This document shows positions 1 through 11,463 of a stretch of 11,463 bases of DNA, piece by piece. This DNA comes from Fibrobacterota bacterium. Its GTDB lineage: Bacteria; Fibrobacterota; Chitinivibrionia; Chitinivibrionales; JANQEN01. The stretch spans positions 1 to 11,463 of the forward strand of contig JAUXBV010000046.1 of the NCBI GenBank assembly GCA_030619215.1, written 5' to 3'. The notes under the pieces are model-generated. The model was given only the letters and a program-made list of their open reading frames with translations. It was not told where the DNA came from and did no database searches. The position numbers were made by a program, and so were the translations under genes. Within the stretch, counting starts at the first letter, position 1. Every line of letters starts with the position of its first letter.

Positions 1-44
1 CCTTGTGCTTTAGTATATCATATAATTATGTGGATTTTTTCCCA

Positions 45-1568
45 TTATCTAATTATGGAAACCTGCCTGACCATCTCTCTATTGGCAAAGGAAAGCTTAA
101 CAAAATAAACACCGCTTGACAAAAAATTAGCATTGAAATGTATGGTATTTGAATTTGTCCCTTGAAGGTGAAACGATTCACTATGTTCTGCAACGATTTT
201 TCCCTGTGAGTTAACACATGAAAGAGTAACTTCTGCAGGGCGCAGAATGTTAAATGATACGGTTATGGTATTTGTTGAGGGAGAATATTTTGTGTAGAGG
301 TTGATTTCATTTTTACAGCTTTTGTCTATATGGATCGTGCCAATATTCGGCTCACCCGGCTTCCACCAGTTCCCGGAGATAAAAAGTATGCCAAGCAGTT
401 GCAGGGTACCAGAGTAATAGCCGCTGTAGTAATGGTAATCCTTCATCATATCCCAGCCGTCGTTCAGGTACTCCTGATATCTTTCATCAACCACACATCC
501 TGAAATGAAGGGTGCAAGGAAGGAGCCCCAGGGATCGCCGGAAGTATTGATGCCAACACCTTCAAGGGTATACCCGTTCTCGATATTACGCGGATCGTTA
601 TTTGTTGCGCTGACAAGCCAGTCAAGCATTTTAGTAAGCACGGATTTTGCTTCGGCAGTTTCATAGTGTGCGTAATCAAGAGCAACCCGTAAGGGAACAC
701 GGCAGGCGTTGTTGTAATAATGGCCGTCATGCTCACCTTCAAGGAAATTGGGGGATGCAGGCTCCGGATTCTGGCCAACGACAAAGTCGGGAACCAGCCC
801 TGTGGTGCTGTTACTTACTGCGGTAAAAACATCGTAGATGATAGAAGCTGCCTGGCTCCAGAAATTATCACCCGTTACATCGTAAAATGCATTCAGGTGC
901 CCGCCCATCCAGTCAGAGGAGCGTGTGCTCCACTCATTGGAATCCCATGAGCCAAGAAGCACCCGTTTACTCTGCTGGCCCATCTCTTCACTTTTTATTG
1001 CGGCGATCATCTTCTTTGCTTCGCCCAGGTAATTGATGGCGCCGTCAGATCCCCACTGGTCATGGGCAAGAAGAAGCGAGTATGCCATATCAAGGTCGCC
1101 GTCTGTTGCGGTGGCACTCTTTGCATCAAGTTCAAAATCGTCACCGCCCCGGATTTCCCATGACATAAGGTCATCATGAACTTCGCATGGGTGGTCACGG
1201 AAGACTTTATACATTCCATCGAAACAATTCCTGGCGTCAGCGTCTTTCCCGCCCATTAGCGCGAAGATAATCATGCCGTAGCCGTGAGCTTCCGATATGG
1301 TGACCGCGTCGCCGCTGGTGCCGGTTCCGCCGCCGGTATAGAGATAGTAGCCGCCTGTTGTGCTTCCCGCCTGTTTAATGTGGTCCCTTTTCCATTTTGT
1401 GTAATATTCAGCAACAGCATTATCCAATGCCTGCTGGGTGACGTGGTTCGGTTTTATACAATTCGGGTAGGTAATATGCCGGGGGTAAGGCCGGTTTTGC
1501 CCGTAAATACTTATTGTAACCTGGAAGAAAAGTACACATACAAGGATTAAACTGCTATTTTTTTTCAT
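45..1568 (-). CDS. Secreted GH8 glycoside hydrolase with C-terminal sorting domain (GH8 paralogue 1, Asn at usual base position)
   Basis: This 507-residue inverting beta-glycanase of family GH8 probably acts on beta-1,4 or mixed-linkage glucan, xylan or chitosan outside the cell. Residues 1-23 form a signal peptide. The GH8 (alpha/alpha)6 barrel covers about 25-405. The general acid is expected at Glu93 in ISEAHGYGM, and the family signature ATATDGDLDMAY (residues 152-163) contains the conserved substrate-distorting Asp. The usual catalytic base Asp is Asn287 in YNNACR. An acidic insertion just before it (LEGEHDG, 276-282) may supply a different base, as in the GH8 subfamily that includes Bacillus K17 chitosanase; that assignment is from memory and tentative. 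Residues 430-507 form a beta-rich T9SS-like tail ending in SSGVYFVKLS. A GGGAG site lies 5 nt before the ATG. The gene has its own promoter and operator and is not co-transcribed tightly with the next GH8 gene, 162 bp upstream. The family call is firm; the exact substrate is unknown. Confidence 0.95.
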   Translation of the reverse strand: MKKNSSLILVCVLFFQVTISIYGQNRPYPRHITYPNCIKPNHVTQQALDNAVAEYYTKWKRDHIKQAGSTTGGYYLYTGGGTGTSGDAVTISEAHGYGMIIFALMGGKDADARNCFDGMYKVFRDHPCEVHDDLMSWEIRGGDDFELDAKSATATDGDLDMAYSLLLAHDQWGSDGAINYLGEAKKMIAAIKSEEMGQQSKRVLLGSWDSNEWSTRSSDWMGGHLNAFYDVTGDNFWSQAASIIYDVFTAVSNSTTGLVPDFVVGQNPEPASPNFLEGEHDGHYYNNACRVPLRVALDYAHYETAEAKSVLTKMLDWLVSATNNDPRNIENGYTLEGVGINTSGDPWGSFLAPFISGCVVDERYQEYLNDGWDMMKDYHYYSGYYSGTLQLLGILFISGNWWKPGEPNIGTIHIDKSCKNEINLYTKYSPSTNTITVSFNILRPAEVTLSCVNSQGKIVAEHSESFHLQGTNSNTIHFNANFLSSGVYFVKLSFANREMVRQVSIIR

Positions 1569-1632
1569 GAAAGCTCCCGGTATTTAAGATAATGGAGCTG
1601 CTTCGTGGTGATTTTTAATGGCCTTAATATTA

Positions 1633-1661
1633 ATTATACCCCTCTTCTACTTAACTTACTA
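1633..1661 (-). promoter_or_regulatory. Predicted promoter of GH8 paralogue 1
   Basis: On the minus strand a perfect TATAAT (1633-1638) is preceded, after a 17-nt spacer, by a poor -35 match TAGTAA (1656-1661). A good -10 with a weak -35 fits an activator-dependent promoter. The 31-bp direct-repeat element (1678-1708) sits 16 bp upstream of the -35. No transcript data; prediction from sequence only. Confidence 0.5.
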
Positions 1662-1677
1662 TATTTTAGAATCTTTT

Positions 1678-1708
1678 CTTTGCAGAATTTGGTTGATTGG
1701 TTTGCAGA
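1678..1708. promoter_or_regulatory. Shared 31-bp direct-repeat element, copy C (predicted AraC-type operator)
   Basis: On the plus strand this reads CTTTGCAGA-N14-GTTTGCAGA, that is, TTTGCA at 1679-1684 and 1701-1706 with a 22-bp period. The same element at the same length occurs upstream of GH8 paralogue 2 (3340-3370) and of the CBM gene (8121-8151). Its gene-proximal end is 109 bp from the GH8 start codon. Direct repeats about two helical turns apart are typical targets of AraC-family dimers, and one such regulator is encoded in the locus. Binding itself is inferred. Confidence 0.7.
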
Positions 1709-1730
1709 AATAACAAATGTATTTCAATTT

Positions 1731-3254
1731 TTAGTTAATAACACTGAATTTCTTATTTACACTGTTTTCTGAAGTCACAAGACTCACAATATAAGCACCA
1801 TTAGATAAAGAAATGTTATTAATTGAAGCAGTTATGGTGTGGTTACCGCGGTTCTGATACTCATTGGCAAGAAGCTGGACTAATTTACCGCTAAGCGTAT
1901 ATATCCCTATTCTAATTACACTACTTTTTGATAAAGAGTAAGAAATGGTGAATGATTTATTATCGCCATTCGGTATAATTTTTAGTCGTTTATCAGCAAG
2001 TAAATTATTATAATTTTCTTTGTCAATCTCAGTATACGGCTCAGGCTTCCACCAGTTACCGGAAAGAATAAGCATACAGAGCAGGTTAATGCTGTCTTCA
2101 TAATATTCCTCTTTTTCCATTTTTATCTCATTCCAGCCTTTATTTAAAAAATCTTGGCTGGTTGAGCTTTTATCAGCTATGCAGGCAACAAGAAAGGGCG
2201 AAGTGAATGCTGTTGAGTTAAAGTCACCGATGGGTGTGCCGTTGAGCTGGTATTCGGCCATAATGTTTTTAGGGTCCCCGCTCGTTTCATCGATGAGCCA
2301 GTTTGCGATTTTGTTACATACGGATTTTGCTGAGGATGTCCCATGGTGTGCAAAATCTGCGCCGATTCTCCAGGGAAAACGGCAGGCGTCGTAGGAATAG
2401 TGGGTTTTACCGGAATAAGAATAGGGCGCCGGAGTCTGGCCGTCAATAAAATCCGGTACCAGTCCGGTCTGCGATGAATAGCTCGATGAAAGCTGGTTAT
2501 ATGTTGAGTATACCGTAGTTGCAACACTGTTCCAGAAGGAGTCGCCGGTGACTTCATAGTAGGTGCGGAAGTGGCCTGCCATCCAATCCGAACAGCGTGA
2601 CTGCAGGCGCTGCGGGTGAGAAGACCAGTCACTGTTATCACAGATCATGACCCGCTTGCTATCGGGATTTATCTCATACCGCTTAATAGCATCAATGACC
2701 GCTTTTGCTTCCTGAAGGTAATTTATTGAACCGTTGGAGCCCCACTGGTAATGCGCGAGTACAAATGCATAGGCAATGTCAAGATCGCCGTCTGTTGCAG
2801 AATAATCCTGATAAGAAGTTTCGCCTCCGCTGCCATCCGAAAGAACCTGCCAGGACATTAAATTATTGCTGCTTCGGCAGGGGTGTGCTTTTAAGAATCT
2901 ATACATGCCGTCGAAATATTTCTTTGCATCCGGCTCTGCATAACTGCCGGTACCTGCCATGAGTGCAAAAACAATCATTCCATAACCCTGGGCTTCCGAA
3001 ACGGTTACTGTGCCGGGACCGCCCGTTCCCTGGGCGTAAATATAATAACCTCCGGTTGTACTCCCCGAAGGTTTCAAATAGGTGTCTCTCCAGTATTTAT
3101 AAAATTCGGAAATATAGTAGGCCATATTTTCAGGGTTAACCTCGGGTTTAATACAATCATTAAAATCCATGCTCTGGGGAAACGGGCGGTTTTGTGCATT
3201 GAGGCAGCTGACAATCATCAAGGTCAGCGCAGATATTTGAAGAAATTTCTTCAT
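1731..3254 (-). CDS. Secreted GH8 glycoside hydrolase with C-terminal sorting domain (GH8 paralogue 2, canonical catalytic residues)
   Basis: This 507-residue secreted inverting endo-beta-glycanase of family GH8 is a diverged paralogue of the GH8 protein at 45-1568. Residues 1-20 are a signal peptide (cleavage likely after LNA). The GH8 barrel spans about 22-405. The general acid is predicted as Glu87 in VSEAQGYGM, the signature SATDGDLDIAYA lies at 152-163, and the general base is predicted as Asp289 in YDACRFPWRIGAD, the position of Asp278 in Clostridium CelA. Residues 430-507 form a FlgD/T9SS-type tail with GKLVQ and SNGAYIVSL, expected to direct export across the outer membrane or surface attachment. 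AAGGAG lies 5 nt before the ATG. The direct-repeat element at 3340-3370 is 85 bp upstream, and a possible -10 (TACTAT, 3297-3302) lies between, without a recognisable -35. A 183-bp gap separates it from the GH9 gene. Endoglucanase, lichenase and xylanase are all possible. Confidence 0.95.
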   Translation of the reverse strand: MKKFLQISALTLMIVSCLNAQNRPFPQSMDFNDCIKPEVNPENMAYYISEFYKYWRDTYLKPSGSTTGGYYIYAQGTGGPGTVTVSEAQGYGMIVFALMAGTGSYAEPDAKKYFDGMYRFLKAHPCRSSNNLMSWQVLSDGSGGETSYQDYSATDGDLDIAYAFVLAHYQWGSNGSINYLQEAKAVIDAIKRYEINPDSKRVMICDNSDWSSHPQRLQSRCSDWMAGHFRTYYEVTGDSFWNSVATTVYSTYNQLSSSYSSQTGLVPDFIDGQTPAPYSYSGKTHYSYDACRFPWRIGADFAHHGTSSAKSVCNKIANWLIDETSGDPKNIMAEYQLNGTPIGDFNSTAFTSPFLVACIADKSSTSQDFLNKGWNEIKMEKEEYYEDSINLLCMLILSGNWWKPEPYTEIDKENYNNLLADKRLKIIPNGDNKSFTISYSLSKSSVIRIGIYTLSGKLVQLLANEYQNRGNHTITASINNISLSNGAYIVSLVTSENSVNKKFSVIN

Positions 3255-3339
3255 TTTCTCTCCTTATTCGGGCATGGTAATAAACATGGTCGTTCGATAG
3301 TAACACATATACTAAGTTACTCCATTTGACTGTATTTTT

Positions 3340-3370
3340 CTTTGCAAAAAGCAGTGGTTTATTTTGCAGA
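3340..3370. promoter_or_regulatory. Shared 31-bp direct-repeat element, copy B (predicted AraC-type operator)
   Basis: The plus strand carries TTTGCA at 3341-3346 and 3363-3368, a 22-bp period. Copy B matches copy A (8121-8151) at 27 of 31 positions, including CTTTGCAAAAAGCA at the left and TTTGCAGA at the right. Sequence outside the element is not conserved, which suggests selection on the element itself. It lies in the 183-bp gap between the GH9 stop codon and the GH8 paralogue 2 start. No convincing terminator hairpin is visible in that gap, so read-through from the GH9 gene is possible. Confidence 0.72.
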
Positions 3371-3437
3371 TTTAGCATGGAAATTCGAAAAAGGCGATTT
3401 AACCTTTGAACGGGGAACCCTGAACCTTTGTGAACTG

Positions 3438-6400
3438 TTAATCTTTATATAATCTTGAAGCCAGCGCAAGCATAAAAATCCCGTCAGCAACGCCACTAAT
3501 CGTGGTTTCCATGCACATATAATCTTTATTGTGGTCGTAAAAAACGCCCTTCTCCGTATTGAATTTATGTGTCGGCTGTGCATTGGGGTCATAGGAGAAC
3601 CAGTTCTTATTCTTTTCCCAGTCCCGCTTCTCACCGGGGCCTTCGGATATTGCGCCGGTCGGGAACAGGCCGCTTTGAAGGGTATATACCTGTGAAAAGG
3701 GGTGCCGAATCGTGTACGGCAGCTCTTTGGTAGCTACAAAACAGATTCCCCAGTTATTAAAGCCCAGGGTATAGTCGAGCATGTCCCTTGCAATACTCTC
3801 ATATTTCCTGTCCCCGGTGCGCATCTGAAATTCCATGGCAGCCGCTGCAATGCCGATATAGCAGTAAAGGCCTCCCCACACATATTTCTGCGGCAATCCC
3901 CAAATATTCCCGCGTTTCTTTGAATTCTTTAAAAAACCGTCAAGGTCTACCCGCAGGTCATTTTTCACAACCGAGTAATTTTCCATGAAGCAGAGGTGTG
4001 CCGGCATGTTCACACTTTCCCATGCACGCCAGCCTGCAGAACGGGCTTTATCGGAATATTTTTTTGCAGCATCGTAATATTTCTTATCCCCGGTTAACCT
4101 GTACAGCTCTGCAGCAGCAAGCTCCATATTGTCGTTTTTTGATTCGTCACCGTAGAAGTCATATAATCCTAAGGTATCAACAAACCAGGCCGGTGCAACT
4201 GCGTCTTTAGATTCGGCCCTTCTGAATATGAGCTCCGCCATATCCCTGTACCGTTTTGCATCTTCCTTTTTGCCAAGTTTGCCAAAGATGCCGCTTCCGA
4301 CAGCCAGGGCAGCGGATGCATACCCCATCTGTGTCGGCGACAATGCGGAAATGCAGGGCCGCCTGCCGTCCAGCTTGTCATTGTGGGGCAGCCTTAAACC
4401 GACATTGTGATCGTCAAGCCCGCCGACCATGATAATAAACTCGTTGGAATCAGGCATACACCGCATGAGAAACTCAAGACCCCATTTAGCTTCATCCAGT
4501 ATGTCAACCAGGCCGGTTTTGCTTAGTTTTTTTGCAAAAATATCGGGATTTACCTCATAAGCCCTGAGAAGAAAATATGCGGTATAACCAACGGTTAATG
4601 AGAATTTCAGATAGTCACCGGCATCATGCCAGCCGCCGAATCCGCTTATCTTCTTTTTATCGGGGTCGATAGTCCACTTATTATTCCGAATACCTGCTCT
4701 CCTGTGTATAACACAGGCACTATCCCCCAGATGGCATACTTTATGATCAACACAGTCTTCTGAGCCGCAGCGGGCAGCTCTCATCCAGCGAAGCGGTTTT
4801 TCAAGGATCCAGCTGTAAGGGTCGTTTTTTATAATAAATTTCGCTTTTTTTGCACCCTTGGTTTCAAAGGTATATTTCCCCTCTTCCTTAAGCGTGGAAA
4901 AGTCCACGATATAGTTAAACGGCATCGGGGTATGCTGCCCCCTGCCATAAACACTTGCCCCGAAGCTCCCCGACTGTACCTTTTTTGTCTTCCCTTTCTT
5001 GGTAGCTTTCATTATAGCCCATGTCCGGCCTTTGATATCCTCCCCGGCCATCACAATAATTCTCTTTTTCCTGGAAGGGTTATACCCCAAATGGTTATAC
5101 CGCAGGTGTACCTCTTTATCATCGGTGACCTTTTCAGCTTTTACTAGCCGGGGCCTCTCCTTTTCCTTCACACCGGCGTCGCCGTATATCCTGGTTGCAA
5201 GGCTCAGAAGAAATATGCAATCAGCAACACCATAGGTGTTTGCCCGCATACACATGTAGTCATCGCTGTGGTCAAAGAATTTGATTTTACCGGTGTTGAA
5301 TTTGTAGGTCTTCTGTTTTTTGGGGTCAAAGTAACACCAGCTGGCCTCATCATCATGTGTTTTTACATCAAGCGGCCCGACAGCGATACCGCCTTCCGGG
5401 AACAGGCCGGTTTGCAGCATGTAAATTTGTGAGTAATAATTTTTCACACATTTTTTTATTGACGGCATAGAGACAAAGCTTAATCCCCAGTTGTTTGTAC
5501 CGAACACATAATCCAGCATGTAAAGCGCATCTTTCTCATACTTTTTATCCGTTGCTGCCATTTGATAAAGCAGCGAAGCTGCGGCAACCTCAATGGTTGC
5601 ATAAATATGGTACAGGGAATAATCCTGGGGCGAGCTCCATATATTACCGCTGCCGGAGGCTTTGCTGTTAAATGAATTCAGATCGTCAAGAAGATATTTT
5701 TTCGAATCCGGCACTTTATCCATCAGTCGCTGGTGGGCATACAGGTGCGCTGAGCTGTAAGCAGCCCACCATGAATTTTTTGCAAGCCCGGCAAACTTTT
5801 TTGCGTGAGTGAGATATTTCCGGTCGTTTGTTAAACGGAAGAGCTCCGCTGCCGCAAGAAGCAGATTATCATACTGTTTATCATCTTCATATAATGCCCA
5901 CTCCTTCTCAAGCCAGGCCGGGGCCTTGGCTGCTTTGGAAACCGCTTTATTAAAGATTTTAACGGCCATTGCCTTATACTTCTCAGCATCTTTCTTTTTG
6001 CCTTCCTTGGCAAACACCGCACTTCCCAGGGCTAGTGCAGCAGCAGTGTTGCCCATCTGGTTCGGCGAGAAGATGGAATAGGCAGGCCGCTTACCATCGA
6101 GCGGATCTTCATGCGGAAGCAGGGTCCCCCGTTCATTATCTGCAAAGTCGCCGACCTCGATGATAAACTCGTTATCATCCGGCATGGTTTTACACAGGTA
6201 GTCGCATCCCCATTTCGCTTCGTCAAGCAGGTCGTTCAGGCCGGTTTTGCTGTACTTTTTTGTAAACAGCGCAGGATTTACCTCATAGGCACGCAGGAGT
6301 GAGTAGGTTGTCAATGCGGCAGTAAGGGTATATTTGGTGTAGACATACCCGTCATACCAGCCGCCCAGCATATTAACCTTTTTCCCCTTGGCATCTTCGG

Positions 6401-6893
6401 CCCAATCGTCAGTGTTGTTATCACCTTTTCTGCGGTATACATAGCAGGACGAATCTCCGAAGTGGGCCGGTTTCCGATCAAGCACATCCTTTGAGCCTGC
6501 ACGGGCAGCGCGCAGCCAGCGCAGATTGCTTTGTGCAACAGAAGCATACGGGTTCCGGGAGACAGTGATTTTAAAGGCTTTTATGCCCTCCATCTTAAAA
6601 GTAAAGGTGCCTTCCGTGGTAAGGGCTGAGACATCTATTTCATGGTTGTAGGCAAACGGTGTATGGTCATTTTTACCGCATACGCTTTTCCCCGCTGTTC
6701 CTGCGAGCGCGCTTTTGCCGCTTTGATCTTTCAGCTCCCATTTCTTGCCCGCACAATCATCATCCGACATGATAACGATTCTTTTTACGGCCTTGGGAAA
6801 GTAGCCGACAAGGTTGTACCGGGCATACCGTTTGGCATGACACATTGATAAGGCTAATAAAATCAAAAGGAATACATGCATTGTTCGTCTCAT
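3438..6893 (-). CDS. Secreted tandem GH9 protein: N-terminal GH9 pseudoenzyme module fused to a canonical GH9 module
   Basis: This 1151-residue exported protein contains two homologous halves. Residues 1-20 are a signal peptide (cleavage after MCHA; no proper lipobox). Half 1 has an Ig-like CelD_N domain (about 22-113) and a GH9 (alpha/alpha)6 domain (about 115-571). After a charged linker (572-595), half 2 has CelD_N (596-690) and GH9 (692-1149). Half 2 keeps the GH9 motif GGWHDAGDYLK (Asp757, Asp760 as base pair), HPFSQ with His1064, and the acid Glu1129 in DYMCMETT. In half 1 the same sites read GGWYDGYVYTK (second Asp replaced by Val184), NYYSQ (Asn485) and DYMCMRAN (Arg550), so half 1 should not hydrolyse. 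Half 2 is a likely endoglucanase or related beta-glycanase. Unlike its neighbours it has no C-terminal sorting domain; it ends at SRLYKD right after the catalytic fold. AGAGG lies 5 nt before the ATG. It starts 18 bp after the CBM gene, which indicates an operon. Confidence 0.94.
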   Translation of the reverse strand: MRRTMHVFLLILLALSMCHAKRYARYNLVGYFPKAVKRIVIMSDDDCAGKKWELKDQSGKSALAGTAGKSVCGKNDHTPFAYNHEIDVSALTTEGTFTFKMEGIKAFKITVSRNPYASVAQSNLRWLRAARAGSKDVLDRKPAHFGDSSCYVYRRKGDNNTDDWAEDAKGKKVNMLGGWYDGYVYTKYTLTAALTTYSLLRAYEVNPALFTKKYSKTGLNDLLDEAKWGCDYLCKTMPDDNEFIIEVGDFADNERGTLLPHEDPLDGKRPAYSIFSPNQMGNTAAALALGSAVFAKEGKKKDAEKYKAMAVKIFNKAVSKAAKAPAWLEKEWALYEDDKQYDNLLLAAAELFRLTNDRKYLTHAKKFAGLAKNSWWAAYSSAHLYAHQRLMDKVPDSKKYLLDDLNSFNSKASGSGNIWSSPQDYSLYHIYATIEVAAASLLYQMAATDKKYEKDALYMLDYVFGTNNWGLSFVSMPSIKKCVKNYYSQIYMLQTGLFPEGGIAVGPLDVKTHDDEASWCYFDPKKQKTYKFNTGKIKFFDHSDDYMCMRANTYGVADCIFLLSLATRIYGDAGVKEKERPRLVKAEKVTDDKEVHLRYNHLGYNPSRKKRIIVMAGEDIKGRTWAIMKATKKGKTKKVQSGSFGASVYGRGQHTPMPFNYIVDFSTLKEEGKYTFETKGAKKAKFIIKNDPYSWILEKPLRWMRAARCGSEDCVDHKVCHLGDSACVIHRRAGIRNNKWTIDPDKKKISGFGGWHDAGDYLKFSLTVGYTAYFLLRAYEVNPDIFAKKLSKTGLVDILDEAKWGLEFLMRCMPDSNEFIIMVGGLDDHNVGLRLPHNDKLDGRRPCISALSPTQMGYASAALAVGSGIFGKLGKKEDAKRYRDMAELIFRRAESKDAVAPAWFVDTLGLYDFYGDESKNDNMELAAAELYRLTGDKKYYDAAKKYSDKARSAGWRAWESVNMPAHLCFMENYSVVKNDLRVDLDGFLKNSKKRGNIWGLPQKYVWGGLYCYIGIAAAAMEFQMRTGDRKYESIARDMLDYTLGFNNWGICFVATKELPYTIRHPFSQVYTLQSGLFPTGAISEGPGEKRDWEKNKNWFSYDPNAQPTHKFNTEKGVFYDHNKDYMCMETTISGVADGIFMLALASRLYKD

Positions 6894-6911
6894 AATTACC
6901 TCTGTAAAAAA

Positions 6912-7997
6912 TTATTTAATAAAACTAAATTTCCTGATTGTTGAAAAATCACCTATCTTCAAGGTAATAAAATAAACCCCGCTTGTTATCGCCCTTGTAT
7001 TAAAATCAGCAACTAACTGTTTTTTCCCTTTCTCCTGTCTCTCATTCACCAATTCAGAAATGACTTTCCCTTTTGCATCATACATGGCAAGGTATACATC
7101 ACTGCTCTTCTTTAAATTATATGAGATGGTGATATTTTTTTGATACTGATTCGGCATGAGATTAATGTTCATCTCTGCATTATTCTGAGGAAAATGGATG
7201 ATCGCCACATTCGTATCATGTTCAAATCCAAAGGTAGCCTCGTATTCAAGACCTTTTAAAACAATATCATCAACCCAGAGATTTACACTGTCATTGGTGG
7301 CAGAGTCCTCATCCGGAATCGCCTGAATAGCAAAACCTTTTACTGCTGCTTTACCATGGTCCCACGTCCAGGAACTGTCATACGCCGGTGAATACCGGTC
7401 CGGATCAAGAAGCGGGGCGGGGATCGCCTGTTCTTTCCAGTCGGAATAGGTACTGTCCATGGTAATATCAAAACCATAGTATCCCCACCCAACCTGAACA
7501 CCATTTGAGTCAACCATTTCATAAACATCCTTTGTCTGAAATAATACGCGTATCTTGCCTGAGCCTTTCAATCTCATGGTAATCTCAGTCAGGTCAGTGA
7601 AATCAAAATAATCCAGGCTGTCTTTTATAAGATCGCAGTAAATACCGGCATAGGGCCATTCTACCTTAAAATCTGCTGTGCTGAGATGGGTTTTATAGAA
7701 TATATGCAGGGCGCCGTTTTCAACCATTGTGGCACTATTATTTTCCGTCAGCTCCTCATGTTTTCCATTGGTAATCTTAGTCCCCAAATCGTCTAAATAG
7801 GGGCTCCACCAGCCGTTTCCCGTGTCAACACTGCCCCAAATGCCTGTAATTGAATAGCCATAAGCCTCACCAACATAACACTGCTCAGGATTATCCGCAT
7901 AGAAAACCTCAAAGTCGTCGAGTTTTACATCACCGAAGCTCTGAGAGGCAAAACAGAGAATGCACGCTAAAGCCGAAATGTTTTTAAATAGTTTCAT
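6912..7997 (-). CDS. Secreted CBM11-like carbohydrate-binding protein with C-terminal sorting domain
   Basis: The protein is 361 residues long if translation begins at the ATG at 7997. An upstream in-frame ATG at 8090 would add 31 residues before the signal peptide, but the inner start has AGGAG 8 nt upstream and gives a clean signal peptide (1-22, ...SQSFG). Residues 24-248 resemble CBM11/CIA30-type beta-sandwich domains: VKLDDFEVFY at the start, PYAGIYCDLI (115-124), FDFTDLTEITMRLKGSG (131-147) and the closing strand NLWVDDIVLKG (239-249). No catalytic domain follows. Residues 285-361 form a T9SS-like tail with ISYNLKKSSDVYLAMYD and SGVYFITLK. The likely role is binding beta-glucan at the cell surface or delivering substrate to the GH9 protein encoded 18 bp downstream; this is inferred. 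Its domain resembles the periplasmic part of the divergently encoded AraC-type regulator. The CBM11 assignment rests on pattern recognition; a related jelly-roll family is possible. Confidence 0.83.
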   Translation of the reverse strand: MKLFKNISALACILCFASQSFGDVKLDDFEVFYADNPEQCYVGEAYGYSITGIWGSVDTGNGWWSPYLDDLGTKITNGKHEELTENNSATMVENGALHIFYKTHLSTADFKVEWPYAGIYCDLIKDSLDYFDFTDLTEITMRLKGSGKIRVLFQTKDVYEMVDSNGVQVGWGYYGFDITMDSTYSDWKEQAIPAPLLDPDRYSPAYDSSWTWDHGKAAVKGFAIQAIPDEDSATNDSVNLWVDDIVLKGLEYEATFGFEHDTNVAIIHFPQNNAEMNINLMPNQYQKNITISYNLKKSSDVYLAMYDAKGKVISELVNERQEKGKKQLVADFNTRAITSGVYFITLKIGDFSTIRKFSFIK

Positions 7998-8005
7998 ACC
8001 ATTAA

Positions 8006-8010
8006 CTCCT
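8006..8010 (-). promoter_or_regulatory. Ribosome binding site choosing the CBM gene start
   Basis: AGGAG on the minus strand lies 8 nt before the ATG at 7997 and directly before a good signal peptide. The alternative in-frame ATG at 8090 would place a signal peptide 31 residues inside the protein, so 7997 is preferred. Confidence 0.75.
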
Positions 8011-8120
8011 GTTTGATGAGTTGAAAGACAAGTATATGATACCTTTCCGGTTGGAAATATTTCTCCATAAGTATTGACTGTTGAATCCATTAATAAGATA
8101 GTGAATTAATGTTTGCTAAT

Positions 8121-8151
8121 CTTTGCAAAAAGCATTGTATTAATTTGCAGA
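8121..8151. promoter_or_regulatory. Shared 31-bp direct-repeat element, copy A (predicted AraC-type operator)
   Basis: TTTGCA occurs at 8122-8127 and 8144-8149 on the plus strand with a 22-bp period, identical in spacing to copies at 1678-1708 and 3340-3370. It lies 123 bp upstream of the CBM gene start and 318 bp upstream of the regulator gene, so it could serve the CBM-GH9 operon and possibly the regulator too. A further near half-site, TTTGCT (8112-8117), sits 10 bp, one helical turn, closer to the CBM gene. Confidence 0.72.
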
Positions 8152-8469
8152 ACTATGAGAATTGAAAAATGTAAGTGGTGTAAAGGAATTACTTTTTGAT
8201 TTTTAATTAGCCACTCCCCCTCTTAAGAAAGGCTTAGGATAAATCCTATTAATAACACTATTAATCATCCTGCTGAAGTATTAAGGGCTCGAAATACGGA
8301 AAAAATAAAGATTAAAAAATTTTATTGAGTAAAAAGAAAGAATTATATCATAGTACTTTGTAAAATTGTTATTTTTTATTGATATTTTTCTTTTCATAAA
8401 TAGGCATTGTATATTTTGAAACAGAAAATAGTCAACTATATGAACACATTCTCTCTTAAATAAATAATA
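8152..8469. other. AT-rich divergent intergenic region before the regulator gene
   Basis: No credible gene is visible in these 318 bp. The sequence is strongly AT-rich from about 8290 onward. It holds a small perfect inverted repeat, TAGGAT-AA-ATCCTA (8235-8248), closely followed by ATTAAT-AACACT-ATTAAT (8248-8265). The regulator promoter should lie here, but no single -35/-10 pair stands out from the AT-rich background. No full copy of the TTTGCA direct repeat is found next to the regulator start. Confidence 0.6.
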
Positions 8470-9594
8470 ATGAAAAAACTTCACGCCATAGTTCTCTCTC
8501 TTCATAAAAAGCAATTGCTGGCTATTATCCCTCTACTGGTATGTTTACTTGCTTTTATTTTGATCAGGATAAATAAAACGCTGACTATTTTCCCTGATAA
8601 GGAAAATGTGTATGGTATGCACACTTACTGCGATGGAAGTGAAGGGGGCAGCACAAAAATTACCGATCCACAAATAAACGGTAACCGGATTACTTTTGAA
8701 TATACGTTGAAAAAAGACAACCCCTATCCGTATGCCGGCCTGTTTATATCATTGCTGGTTGACAGCACATTTCTTGACATATCCAAATATGACTATTTAT
8801 CCCTTGAGCTTGAGTCTGAAAACGCACAGGGATTTGCTATATACCTGAAAGCATTTATTGACGGATTTACCAAACTTGACCAGTACTTTACTCATGAGTT
8901 CCTCATGAAGGAAATCTCGGTCGACAGTATTTCGTCGAGTTATAGAATTAACCTGGACGAATTTATTCATCCTGCCTGGTGGCTTGAACAGAGAGAGACT
9001 CCTGATTCAAAAATTAAAAAGCCCCACTTTTCAAAAATGATCAGTATGCAAATACAGAACGGGCTCTTTACTCCGTTTGACTCACCAGTAAAAATCACTG
9101 TCCGCAAAATTGCTTTTACTAAAAATACGACACTGAGCAGTACTATAATCTGGCTGTGTATTATCTCCTATTTTGTTATCTACCTGGTTATCTTCCTGAT
9201 AATACAGCGGAAAAATAAAGTGATCTCCTACAAGGAGCTTAAGGTTGAGAACGATGCTGATGAGGATATAAAGAGGATTATGAATACGGTCGCAAAGAAT
9301 TATGCTGACCCTGAGTTTACTGTAGAGAAACTTGCCCGTGAAGCCGGTGTTTCTGCGTCAAAGGTCCCGGGTATGCTGAAAAAACGTTTCAATCTCAACT
9401 TCAAGCAGTACCTCAATACGATACGAATCAATGAGGCTAAACGCCTATTGCGTGAAACGGACAAGCATATTACATCCTGTGCGTTTACAGTCGGCTATAA
9501 TAATATTCCCCACTTTAACAGAACCTTCAAACAGTTTGAAGGAATGTCCCCGAAAGAGTACCGGAAAAAGCAGCAGGAAGAGAAGAAAGATTAG
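8470..9594 (+). CDS. Membrane-tethered AraC-family transcriptional regulator with CBM-like periplasmic sensor
   Basis: This 374-residue protein is a predicted one-component transmembrane regulator. Residues about 15-33 form membrane helix 1 after a short basic N-terminus; 40-218 are predicted periplasmic; 225-246 form membrane helix 2; 263-366 are the cytoplasmic AraC DNA-binding domain with two helix-turn-helix units (FTVEKLAREAGVSASKV and HITSCAFTVGYNN) and the family ending HFNRTFKQFEGMSPKEYR. The periplasmic part contains YPYAGLFISLLVDS and DISKYDYLSLELES, close in pattern to PYAGIYCDLIKDS and DFTDLTEITMRLKG of the CBM protein encoded divergently, so it probably senses a similar glycan. 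It is the likely activator at the three TTTGCA direct-repeat elements. The ATG at 8470 follows an in-frame stop at 8461 and is the only start that keeps helix 1; no clear Shine-Dalgarno sequence precedes it. The regulator type is certain; ligand and targets are inferred. Confidence 0.93.
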   Translation: MKKLHAIVLSLHKKQLLAIIPLLVCLLAFILIRINKTLTIFPDKENVYGMHTYCDGSEGGSTKITDPQINGNRITFEYTLKKDNPYPYAGLFISLLVDSTFLDISKYDYLSLELESENAQGFAIYLKAFIDGFTKLDQYFTHEFLMKEISVDSISSSYRINLDEFIHPAWWLEQRETPDSKIKKPHFSKMISMQIQNGLFTPFDSPVKITVRKIAFTKNTTLSSTIIWLCIISYFVIYLVIFLIIQRKNKVISYKELKVENDADEDIKRIMNTVAKNYADPEFTVEKLAREAGVSASKVPGMLKKRFNLNFKQYLNTIRINEAKRLLRETDKHITSCAFTVGYNNIPHFNRTFKQFEGMSPKEYRKKQQEEKKD

Positions 9595-9612
9595 ATATCA
9601 ATTTTTCTTATT

Positions 9613-9792
9613 ATGATCAATGCAGCGCAGCATGTTAATGATCTGCGAACTCCGCCGGGTAACAGGCTTGAGGCTTTAAAGGGGGACTTACCCGGATTTC
9701 ATAGTATCCGTATAAATAATCAATACAGAGTTATCTTCAAAATGCAAGGGTCAAATGCCGAGAAAGTGCAAATTGTTGACTATCACCGTTAG
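9613..9792 (+). pseudogene. higB: 5'-truncated HigB toxin remnant
   Basis: The 59-codon stretch from ATG 9613 matches the C-terminal two thirds of HigB/RelE-type mRNA interferases: NAAQHVNDLRTPPGNRLE, ALKGDLPGFHSIRINNQYRV and the terminal VQIVDYHR. A full HigB is about 90-95 residues, so roughly the first 33-36, including the N-terminal helices, are missing. Upstream, the frame runs straight into the stop codon of the AraC-type regulator (9592-9594), so no missing exon or frameshifted N-terminus is present. There is no Shine-Dalgarno site before ATG 9613. The residues used for RNA cleavage in HigB toxins (Lys, Arg and the C-terminal Asp-Tyr-His) are still there, but the fold should be incomplete. 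A short expressed product cannot be excluded. It ends 21 bp before the higA start, the usual higBA order. Confidence 0.85.
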
Positions 9793-9813
9793 TAGCTGTA
9801 AGGGAGCTTAATT

Positions 9814-10086
9814 ATGATACCAAAAAACAGACCTCCGTCGCATCCGGGTGAAATTCTTATGCGCGAGTTTCTTGAGCCCATGTCCATAACGCAAAGCGAG
9901 CTGGCCAGAAGAATTAAAGTACCTATTCAAAGGATAAATACCCTAATTAACAGTAAGCGTGGCATAAGCGCTGAAACGGCACTGCTGCTGGCAAAGGAGT
10001 TTGGAACAACGCCTGAATTCTGGATGAATCTACAAAGCATTTACGACATTTATTTTGCAGCGCAAAAATTGAAAAAAGCTGCTTAA
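9814..10086 (+). CDS. higA: HigA-family antitoxin / transcriptional repressor
   Basis: This 90-residue protein is of the normal length for HigA, the DNA-binding antitoxin of type II HigBA modules. It begins with the family motif NRPPSHPGEILMREFLEP (residues 5-22) and contains an HTH_3/Xre helix-turn-helix at about 25-79 (ITQSELARRIKVPIQRIN, then GISAETALLLAKEFGTTPEFWMNLQ). AGGGAG lies 7 nt before the ATG. HigA normally neutralises HigB and represses its own operon through an upstream palindrome. Here the partner toxin is truncated, so the gene is an orphan antitoxin that may persist as a regulator or protect against related toxins. The reading frame is intact. Confidence 0.93.
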   Translation: MIPKNRPPSHPGEILMREFLEPMSITQSELARRIKVPIQRINTLINSKRGISAETALLLAKEFGTTPEFWMNLQSIYDIYFAAQKLKKAA

Positions 10087-10133
10087 ACAGTGATTGACGA
10101 ATAGGTAATAACAATTAATTTCAATATTATATT

Positions 10134-10139
10134 GAGAGA
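10134..10139 (+). promoter_or_regulatory. Ribosome binding site supporting a TTG start of the GH2 gene
   Basis: GAGAGA lies 5 nt before TTG at 10145. The frame is closed by TGA at 10133-10135 and no ATG occurs before residue 63, deep in the conserved N-terminal domain. TTG at 10145 therefore gives the best start and preserves the family N-terminus KNWLLQSSEKISADG. Confidence 0.6.
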
Positions 10140-10144
10140 ATAGA

Positions 10145-11463
10145 TTGAAATATCAACACCTTTTGAAAAACTGGCTCCTGCAATCATCTGAGAAAATATC
10201 TGCTGATGGAGAAAAAATAACCAGCGTAAACTTTCCCCTTAAGGAGTGGTACACTGTTACTGTTCCGGGAACTGTGGTAAGCGGACTGGTTGAAAACAGG
10301 GTATATGACGACCCATACTTTGGCCTTAACATGCAGTCCATTCCCGGATACAAACACGGCAAAACAACCCATTTCTCTTTTCACCCCATGCCGGACGGCA
10401 GCCCGTTTCGTAAACCATGGTGGTATCGTAATGAGTTTACTCCTGAAAACTCGTTTGCCAATAAGAGTGCATGGCTGCTGGTAAAAGGTATTAATTATAA
10501 AGCAAACATCTGGCTTAACGGTAAACAGGTTGCCGGCGCCGATACAATTACCGGATCCTTTCGCAGATTCGATATTGATATTACAAATCTTATTCGGCCC
10601 GGTAAAAAAAATGTGTTGGCAATTGAGGTTTTCCCGCCCAAACCTGATGATCTCTGTATAACCTTTATTGACTGGAGCCCGACTCCCCCTGATGATTCAA
10701 TGGGAATCTGGCAGCCTGTCTCAGTTTATGCTACCGGCCCTGTTGCAATAAAACATCCCTTTGTCAGGAGTAAACTTGACGTTAAAACGCTCGATGCAGC
10801 AGAATTGTTCATCAGCGCGGAATTGATTAATACAAGCGACATGCAAATAACCGGTATTCTTGAATGTAAAATTGAAAAGATCTCTTTTTCAAAAGAGGTT
10901 ACCCTGAACCCGGGTGAGAAAAAAGAGATTCCTGTTACTACGGAAGATTTCCCACAATTAACAATTAAGAAACCACGGGTATGGTGGCCGTACCAGCTCG
11001 GCTCTCCTGAGTTGTATTCATTAGAGCTGCAATTCATTATTGATAAAGAAGTGTCAGACTTCAGTGCCGTTACGTTTGGAATACGGGACATTCAATCACG
11101 CATCAACGAACACGGCGCTCGTCAGTATACCATAAACGGGCAGGATATATTAATTCGCGGCAGCGCCTGGACACCGGATCTCATGCTCAGGCAGCCTGAG
11201 AAGCGCGACGATACTGATATTGCCTATTTAAAAAACATGAACCTGAACGCATTCAGGCTGGAGGGAAAACTGGCATCGGATTACTTCTGGGACAGGTGCG
11301 ACCAGGAAGGCATTCTGGTGCTCGCAGGCTGGCCGTGTTGCACGCACTGGGAAAAGTGGGATAAGTGGAAACCCTGTGATATGGATATAGCCCGGGAATC
11401 CCTGCGCTCACAAATTAAAAGGCTGCGTAATCATCCCGGCTTTGTTGCCTGGCTCTATGGCAG
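10145..11463 (+). CDS. GH2 exo-beta-glucosaminidase / mannosylglycoprotein beta-mannosidase-like enzyme (3' end beyond window)
   Basis: The first 439 residues are present of a GH2 retaining exo-glycosidase whose full length is usually about 850-900. Residues 1-200 form the jelly-roll sugar-binding domain, with WYTVTVPGTVVSGLVEN (35-51), DPYFGLNMQSIPG, PWWYRNEF and the group-specific DWSPTPPDDSMGIW (176-189). An Ig-like domain covers about 200-315. The TIM barrel starts near 320 and includes RGSAWTPDLMLR, NAFRLEGK, the double-Cys AGWPCCTHWEKW (394-405) and RLRNHPGFVAWLYG at the window end. These motifs match CsxA-type exo-beta-D-glucosaminidases and plant endo-beta-mannosidases better than LacZ-type galactosidases. 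The catalytic acid and nucleophile lie beyond the window. No signal peptide is seen, so it acts in the cytoplasm on imported oligosaccharides or glycoprotein-type glycans. It starts 58 bp after higA and has no copy of the TTTGCA operator. Confidence 0.88.
   Translation, partial: MKYQHLLKNWLLQSSEKISADGEKITSVNFPLKEWYTVTVPGTVVSGLVENRVYDDPYFGLNMQSIPGYKHGKTTHFSFHPMPDGSPFRKPWWYRNEFTPENSFANKSAWLLVKGINYKANIWLNGKQVAGADTITGSFRRFDIDITNLIRPGKKNVLAIEVFPPKPDDLCITFIDWSPTPPDDSMGIWQPVSVYATGPVAIKHPFVRSKLDVKTLDAAELFISAELINTSDMQITGILECKIEKISFSKEVTLNPGEKKEIPVTTEDFPQLTIKKPRVWWPYQLGSPELYSLELQFIIDKEVSDFSAVTFGIRDIQSRINEHGARQYTINGQDILIRGSAWTPDLMLRQPEKRDDTDIAYLKNMNLNAFRLEGKLASDYFWDRCDQEGILVLAGWPCCTHWEKWDKWKPCDMDIARESLRSQIKRLRNHPGFVAWLYG

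Follow-up and report, generated by a model that had tools for sequence, protein, structure and literature searches.

What does a glycoside hydrolase gain from carrying, in one polypeptide, a second module of its own family that lacks the residues needed for catalysis? This question is raised by a gene of a Fibrobacterota bacterium (order Chitinivibrionales, assembly GCA_030619215.1) on contig JAUXBV010000046.1, of which positions 1 to 11,463 constitute the stretch analysed here (the window). Its 1151-codon open reading frame (ORF) contains no internal stops, and Pfam recognises in the product two stretches each of the glycoside hydrolase family 9 (GH9; PF00759) and CelD_N (PF02927) domains, which we refer to as halves 1 and 2 (Table 1). 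Both halves exceed the curated PF00759 cut-off of 27.7 bits (146.2 bits for half 1 and 189.6 bits for half 2), while the NCBIfam match of the protein (CelK) falls far below the cut-off of that model. An earlier reading made from the DNA letters alone (the sequence-only reading) proposed that half 1 is a pseudoenzyme kept by selection, and placed it at 5181–6830, which is the right region with its ends trimmed (half 1 spans approximately 5169–6893). We consider it probable, on the comparative evidence below, that half 1, a GH9 paralogue, is catalytically dead and serves as a dedicated non-catalytic partner of the adjacent intact GH9.

Half 2 possesses a complete catalytic set, with Asp757 and Asp760 in the dyad motif WHDAGD and Glu1129 in the acid motif DYMCMETT, whereas the corresponding motifs of half 1, WYDGYV and DYMCMRAN, retain only Asp181, the base being replaced by Val184 and the acid by Arg550. 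Codon reading and alignment bear out the catalytic residues and codon positions given by the sequence-only reading for both halves. A conserved His and a conserved Trp, present in half 2 as His829 and Trp1006, are also replaced in half 1.

To place these losses in a phylogenetic context, relatives were collected by protein-database searches that scored 7992 (residues 20–570 as query) and 7999 (profile) candidates sharing most words, the best 120 of 141 matches of the profile search being taken. Three of 132 single database proteins, all shorter than 450 amino acids (P0045, P0074, and P0131), were excluded from the resulting 147-sequence alignment. For tree inference, 58 of the 147 sequences were chosen by hand to span the groups and combined with 15 genomic loci (73 in total), leaving out P0021 and P0022, which are identical to the half-1 modules of genomes G016 and G018, and removing the catalytic columns. 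Three fetched loci, L044–L046, did not enter the analysis. The maximum-likelihood tree unites all 22 half-1-type sequences in a single clade (bootstrap 100, Shimodaira–Hasegawa-like approximate likelihood ratio test 99), whose sister group (96/93) comprises 18 intact "partner" sequences including all nine half 2s, the two clades together being supported at 100/98. A quicker tree of a partly different set of 73 sequences recovered the same groups. Branching is similar in both clades, each containing the window group, G016 with G020, and G018 with G007, and therefore fits a pair that was inherited together; inside the window group, however, the two halves place P0002, P0004, and the window in a different order.

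Loss of the catalytic residues is common to the entire half-1 clade. Among the 51 sequences outside it in the 73-sequence alignment, both dyad Asp residues are present in all and the acid Glu in 50, the sole exception being P0063, which lies on a contig of 2170 bases. None of the 22 half-1-type sequences combines Asp, Asp, and Glu. Their acid column holds seven residue types (D in 8, G in 5, R in 3, S in 3, and A, N, and E in one each) and their base column nine, with Asp in 4 of 22; the single member with an acid Glu, P0024, has Val and Asn in place of the dyad. Scoring the acid column as Glu or any other residue requires three changes on the tree. In the wider, less carefully aligned 147-sequence set, Asp, Asp, His, Trp, and Glu are all present in 118 of 123 non-clade sequences, the exceptions being P0020, P0057 (gap), P0063, P0106 (Asn at the base), and P0118 (no Trp), and Asp, Asp, and Glu co-occur in 0 of 24 clade members. 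P0106 and P0118, the latter with Ala at the Trp1006 column, could be further impaired GH9s or misalignments.

One residue cited by the sequence-only reading does not discriminate between the halves. A change of a substrate-site His to Asn485 had been taken as a sign of a dead half 1, but of the 51 non-clade relatives 29 carry Asn and 10 carry His in this column, and the fused half 2 of P0004 also has Asn. Profile alignment to CbhA (1ut9) matches Asn485 to the Asn of an N-P-H-D-R stretch, the His and Arg of which, presumably the substrate-site pair, correspond to Tyr487 and Gln489 in half 1 and to Phe1066 and Gln1068 in half 2. As both halves depart from CbhA there, the Asn485 column is uninformative on half 1 being dead. 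All 51 non-clade relatives likewise have Y, F, or N at the position of this His, and 50 of them have a residue other than Arg at that of the Arg. As seen at residues 1064–1068 of half 2 (window 3690–3704), the CbhA His and Arg are missing from most of this GH9 group, its intact members among them, and the substrate of half 2 itself may be unusual.

Conservation across the module indicates where half 1 has changed. Of 63 columns conserved in at least 95% of the 51 other sequences, nine are kept in half of the clade or fewer (half-2 numbering: H829, W1006, E1129, A758, D760, L766, F764, D757, and R834), and of the other 54 columns 49 persist in more than 80% of clade rows. Loss is therefore concentrated at the catalytic centre, as three of the nine columns are catalytic and A758, F764, and L766 belong to the dyad motif or follow closely on it. 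Against a reference of 33 outgroup sequences (54 columns), four columns are kept in less than half of the rows in the partners and eight in the half-1 clade; by this measure the intact partners have diverged too, though at none of the catalytic columns. An alternative explanation for these patterns is that half 1 has changed its chemistry, employing a different acid/base pair or catalysing a non-hydrolytic reaction, for which the Asp found at the acid column in eight of 22 members and the fully retained predicted fold could speak. We regard this as improbable. Only seven columns are at least 90% conserved in the clade and different in the partners (S148, Y180, T189, A193, Y232, L497, and W519), five of which simply match the outgroup majority residue, none of the seven is acidic, and no new acidic residue is conserved in the clade; the variety of residues at the acid and base columns is moreover what would be expected without a selected chemistry.

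A second alternative is that half 1 is a pseudo-glycosidase lectin whose binding of glucan or oligosaccharide feeds or targets half 2, in the manner of an internal carbohydrate-binding module (CBM). Glycan-binding pseudo-glycosidases are a known outcome, and PgaB combines tandem CE4-related domains of which one is inactive and binds glycan, as summarised in PMC7828330. Many GH9 residues are also widely kept in the clade, including Tyr185 (19/22), Lys187 (21/22), and Trp419 (21/22). However, the His829 and Trp1006 columns, invariant in the 51 relatives, are kept in none of the 22 members, so the ancestral cleft seems not to have been preserved as a binding site. The Trp958 column is kept in 13 of 22 (Tyr379 in the window) and the Arg834 column in 11 of 22 (Leu258 in the window); these four residues putatively line the cleft. 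Glycan binding would probably require a new site, and the internal-CBM role suggested by the sequence-only reading is thus weakened in its original form and may persist as binding at such a site. Overall we judge a lectin function possible but rather unlikely.

Half 1 is predicted to adopt an intact GH9 fold, an (alpha/alpha)6 barrel with its CelD_N domain (predicted local distance difference test score, pLDDT, 94.5), and it is under purifying selection. Neutral simulation produced on average 26–30 stops and 15–17% identity, compared with the 0 stops and 59–78% identity observed; the half-1-type copies of all six genomes that carry them are free of stops, and for G020/G016 the second-position constraint of half 1 equals that of half 2. 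The notion that half 1 is a decaying remnant without selection, to which its faster evolution relative to half 2 might point, is largely refuted by these selection analyses and by retention of the half-1 type in two families of the order; we reject it as very improbable.

Wherever genomic context is visible, members of this old group of inactive copies lie beside an intact sister enzyme, which points to retention in a helper role and not to decay. In a survey of 167 genomes of the phylum with the half-1 profile (E ≤ 1e-40, at most eight candidates scored per genome), half-1-type and partner-type genes occurred in six, adjacent in all six, five as separate genes and one, the window, as a fusion; the best matches of the 14 other phylum genomes with a hit fell outside both clades. 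Among 60 related genomes, all five listed from one other family of the order (f7) carry both modules as adjacent separate genes, with the half-1 type first, gaps of 15, 14, 12, 17, and 14 bases, and apparently a signal sequence on each gene (by eye). In one separate-gene branch (L041, L043, P0058, P0060, and P0061; genomes G018 and G007) the active partner looks by eye like a lipoprotein, and the dead copy in G018 and G007 has an apparently ordinary signal peptide. The protein-database search revealed three further fused proteins, P0002–P0004, which are 82, 73, and 74% identical to query residues 20–570 and bring the known fused forms to four. Its profile version yielded at least 13 further distinct half-1-type proteins, namely P0023–P0033, P0036, and P0049, as well as two copies identical to genome ones. 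P0025 and the partner-type P0034 are each recorded on a 4425-base contig, perhaps one and the same. A scan of genome contigs with half 1 found no relative, and with the half-2 alignment the best 80 of 522 relatives were 23–32% identical, none at clade-level identity; three matches turned up in viral contigs, all of them partial and distant.

Because the window consists of one 11.5-kb contig from a draft genome, mis-joined genes or misaligned motifs might be suspected. The other copies refute such an artefact, which we consider practically negligible and reject: the same fusion occurs in three other database proteins, losses of this kind also appear in the relatives with separate genes, and the motif context aligns clearly save for a one-residue insertion in G012.

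Clade-wide catalytic loss, an intact predicted fold, purifying selection, and pairing in six of six genomes together give good support to the proposal of the sequence-only reading that half 1 is a pseudoenzyme kept by selection. Adjacency in every carrying genome, an old shared origin, and fusion further argue for a functional partnership. We posit that an ancestral GH9 duplicated once in the wider lineage of the window, that one copy lost the base, the acid, and the conserved His and Trp while keeping its fold, that the two copies remained adjacent as a two-gene operon with the pseudo copy first, and that in the lineage of the window both merged into one polypeptide. Half 1 would lack hydrolase activity and presumably works physically with half 2. 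It could have a structural or regulatory job or bind at a new site; most likely it stabilises or steers the intact enzyme. A hypothetical homodimeric ancestor that turned into a live/dead heterodimer would offer a simple explanation of the pairing; the GH9 enzyme VC0615 forms homodimers in its crystal (PMC6096475).

Several observations weigh against a dead, selectively maintained partner. Residue losses like those of the clade exist outside it, if rarely (the base Asn of P0106 and the lost Trp of P0118), and within the clade the Asp at the acid column of eight of 22 members and the Glu of P0024 make residual activity in some members possible. Evolution has been faster in half 1 than in half 2, with a higher nonsynonymous to synonymous rate ratio (omega 0.30 versus 0.20), a higher mean column entropy (1.52 versus 1.16 bits, from 22 and 18 rows), and, for G018/G007, a higher ratio of second-position to four-fold change (0.60 versus 0.38), indicating some relaxation of selection on half 1. 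For most pairs synonymous sites have reached saturation, synonymous divergence by the Nei–Gojobori (NG86) method being not computable in 26 of 30 module pairs and near saturation in two more. The AlphaFold model of the tandem protein has both modules folded and a linker of pLDDT <50 (residues 579–592), but no confident docking, so that the relative placement of the modules is not fixed and contact between them is neither supported nor argued against (predicted template modelling score, pTM, 0.68). The neighbourhood is visible in six genomes only, 13 further clade proteins being without context, and G001 (90% complete), the sole further representative of the window's family among the genomes searched, gave no match. 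Two of the genomes are incomplete (G000, 68.6%; G020, 69%), and the limit of eight scored candidates per genome applies throughout the survey.

The remaining genes of the window are listed in Table 1. No type IX secretion system (T9SS) C-terminal domain (PF18962) was found by the Pfam scan on the tandem protein; since its GH8 neighbours bear this tail, it may act in the periplasm, perhaps on oligosaccharides. The two adjacent GH8 genes could reflect a local duplication. The T9SS-tailed protein encoded upstream of the tandem gene has no other Pfam domain at E ≤ 0.001 and could be a glycan-binding protein. The divergent AraC-type regulator, which shows an apparent extracytoplasmic region flanked by two hydrophobic stretches, may sense the glycan handled by the GH9 pair. 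In four of the six genomes a regulator of this type lies divergently next to the pair, with homologues in G016 (L040:6759–7943, 34% identity), G012 (L042:2136–3332, 37%), and G020 (L039:5483–6199, 25% over the N-terminal part of a gene cut by the contig end), and no such ORF was seen in the stretches fetched around the pair in G018 and G007. It is conceivable, if distinctly unlikely, that a periplasmic GH9 has the dead GH9 as its obligate allosteric or sensing subunit, which would report on or control the breakdown of glycan, perhaps in concert with this regulator, and that fusion would have made the heterodimer one chain. Regulation of half 2 by half 1, as also suggested by the sequence-only reading, would fit the pairing and fusion; the tandem model does not fix the two modules in relation to each other. 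Beyond the regulator, an ORF at 9814–10086 (+) resembles a HigA-like XRE-family antitoxin, and a 439-amino-acid open frame at 10145–11461 (+), running off the contig, resembles the start of a GH2-like gene, both named by eye from the sequence.

Table 1. Coordinates of the tandem GH9 gene, its substituted codons, and neighbouring genes in the window.
Feature	Position	Strand	Basis or remark
Tandem GH9 gene, 1151 aa	3438..6893	-	Signal peptide (by eye), CelD_N-GH9 half 1, linker, CelD_N-GH9 half 2
Half 1, pseudo-GH9 module, residues 1-575	5169..6893	-	
Linker joining the modules, residues 579-592, predicted disordered	5118..5159	-	AlphaFold2 pLDDT <50
Half 2, intact partner GH9 module (D757, D760, H829, W1006, E1129)	3438..5135	-	Pfam GH9 E 1.6e-55 and residues
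Codon 181, GAC = Asp, only catalytic-dyad residue retained in half 1	6351..6353	-	Codon reading and alignment
Codon 184, GTC = Val replacing catalytic base Asp	6342..6344	-	D in 51/51 non-clade relatives, 4/22 clade
Codon 550, CGG = Arg replacing catalytic acid Glu	5244..5246	-	E in 50/51 non-clade relatives, 1/22 clade
Codon 253, Asn replacing conserved His (half 2 His829)	6135..6137	-	His in 51/51 non-clade, 0/22 clade
Codon 427, Leu replacing conserved Trp (half 2 Trp1006)	5613..5615	-	Trp in 51/51 non-clade, 0/22 clade
392-aa protein with T9SS sorting domain	6912..8090	-	18 bases upstream of tandem GH9, same strand
GH8 with T9SS tail, downstream, probable operon member	1731..3254	-	ORF and Pfam
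Second downstream GH8 with T9SS tail	45..1568	-	ORF and Pfam
AraC-type regulator, divergent, apparent membrane segments	8470..9594	+	Pfam and homologue comparison

The interpretation we favour, a dead GH9 partnered with an intact one, can be set against known systems. The closest are GH9 endoglucanases with an N-terminal Ig-like domain (Alicyclobacillus acidocaldarius CelA/Cel9A, 3gzk; CelD, 1clc; a metagenomic enzyme, 3x17; CbhA, 1ut9), from which half 1 differs in lacking the base, the acid, and the conserved His and Trp; relative to CbhA, neither half has the N-P-H-D-R His and Arg. Two proteins of the dead clade, P0027 and P0030, are named "endoglucanase" in a source, so annotation-based counts of GH9 enzymes can include dead copies. 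In leaf beetles, GH28 pseudoenzymes are inactive duplicated paralogues that contribute to the digestive pathway of their active counterparts (abstract of PMC6549527); they resemble half 1 as inactive glycoside hydrolase paralogues born by duplication, but are animal genes of another family, and that abstract does not mention fusion or operon pairing with an active copy. PgaB likewise unites an active and an inactive carbohydrate-active module in one protein, but belongs to another enzyme class, and its inactive module is C-terminal with known binding whereas half 1 is N-terminal (PMC7828330). The endogenous GH9 of the coconut rhinoceros beetle showed no activity in assays (PMC10981690); it is a single insect gene, and the text consulted mentions neither a conserved inactive clade nor an active partner. 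A literature search for GH9 pseudoenzymes, inactive GH9, and tandem GH9, in a library short of most subscription journals, found among the matches listed neither a conserved inactive bacterial GH9 clade nor a conserved pseudoenzyme–enzyme pair described for the family, which is weak evidence of absence. PMC6925290 and PMC12508864 have the word pseudoenzyme solely among their references, and PMC4704652 gives GH counts for the phylum; none of the three has a bearing on half 1. Inactive carbohydrate-active enzymes retained for a purpose are already a known kind, as in the GH28 proteins of beetles, pseudo-glycosidase lectins, and PgaB. What appears to be new here is a putative GH9 pseudoenzyme that accompanies its active sister and in one lineage is joined to it in a single chain. 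As this couple of a dead and a live module occurs both fused and as separate genes, it constitutes a natural experiment on what a dead glycosidase does for its live twin.

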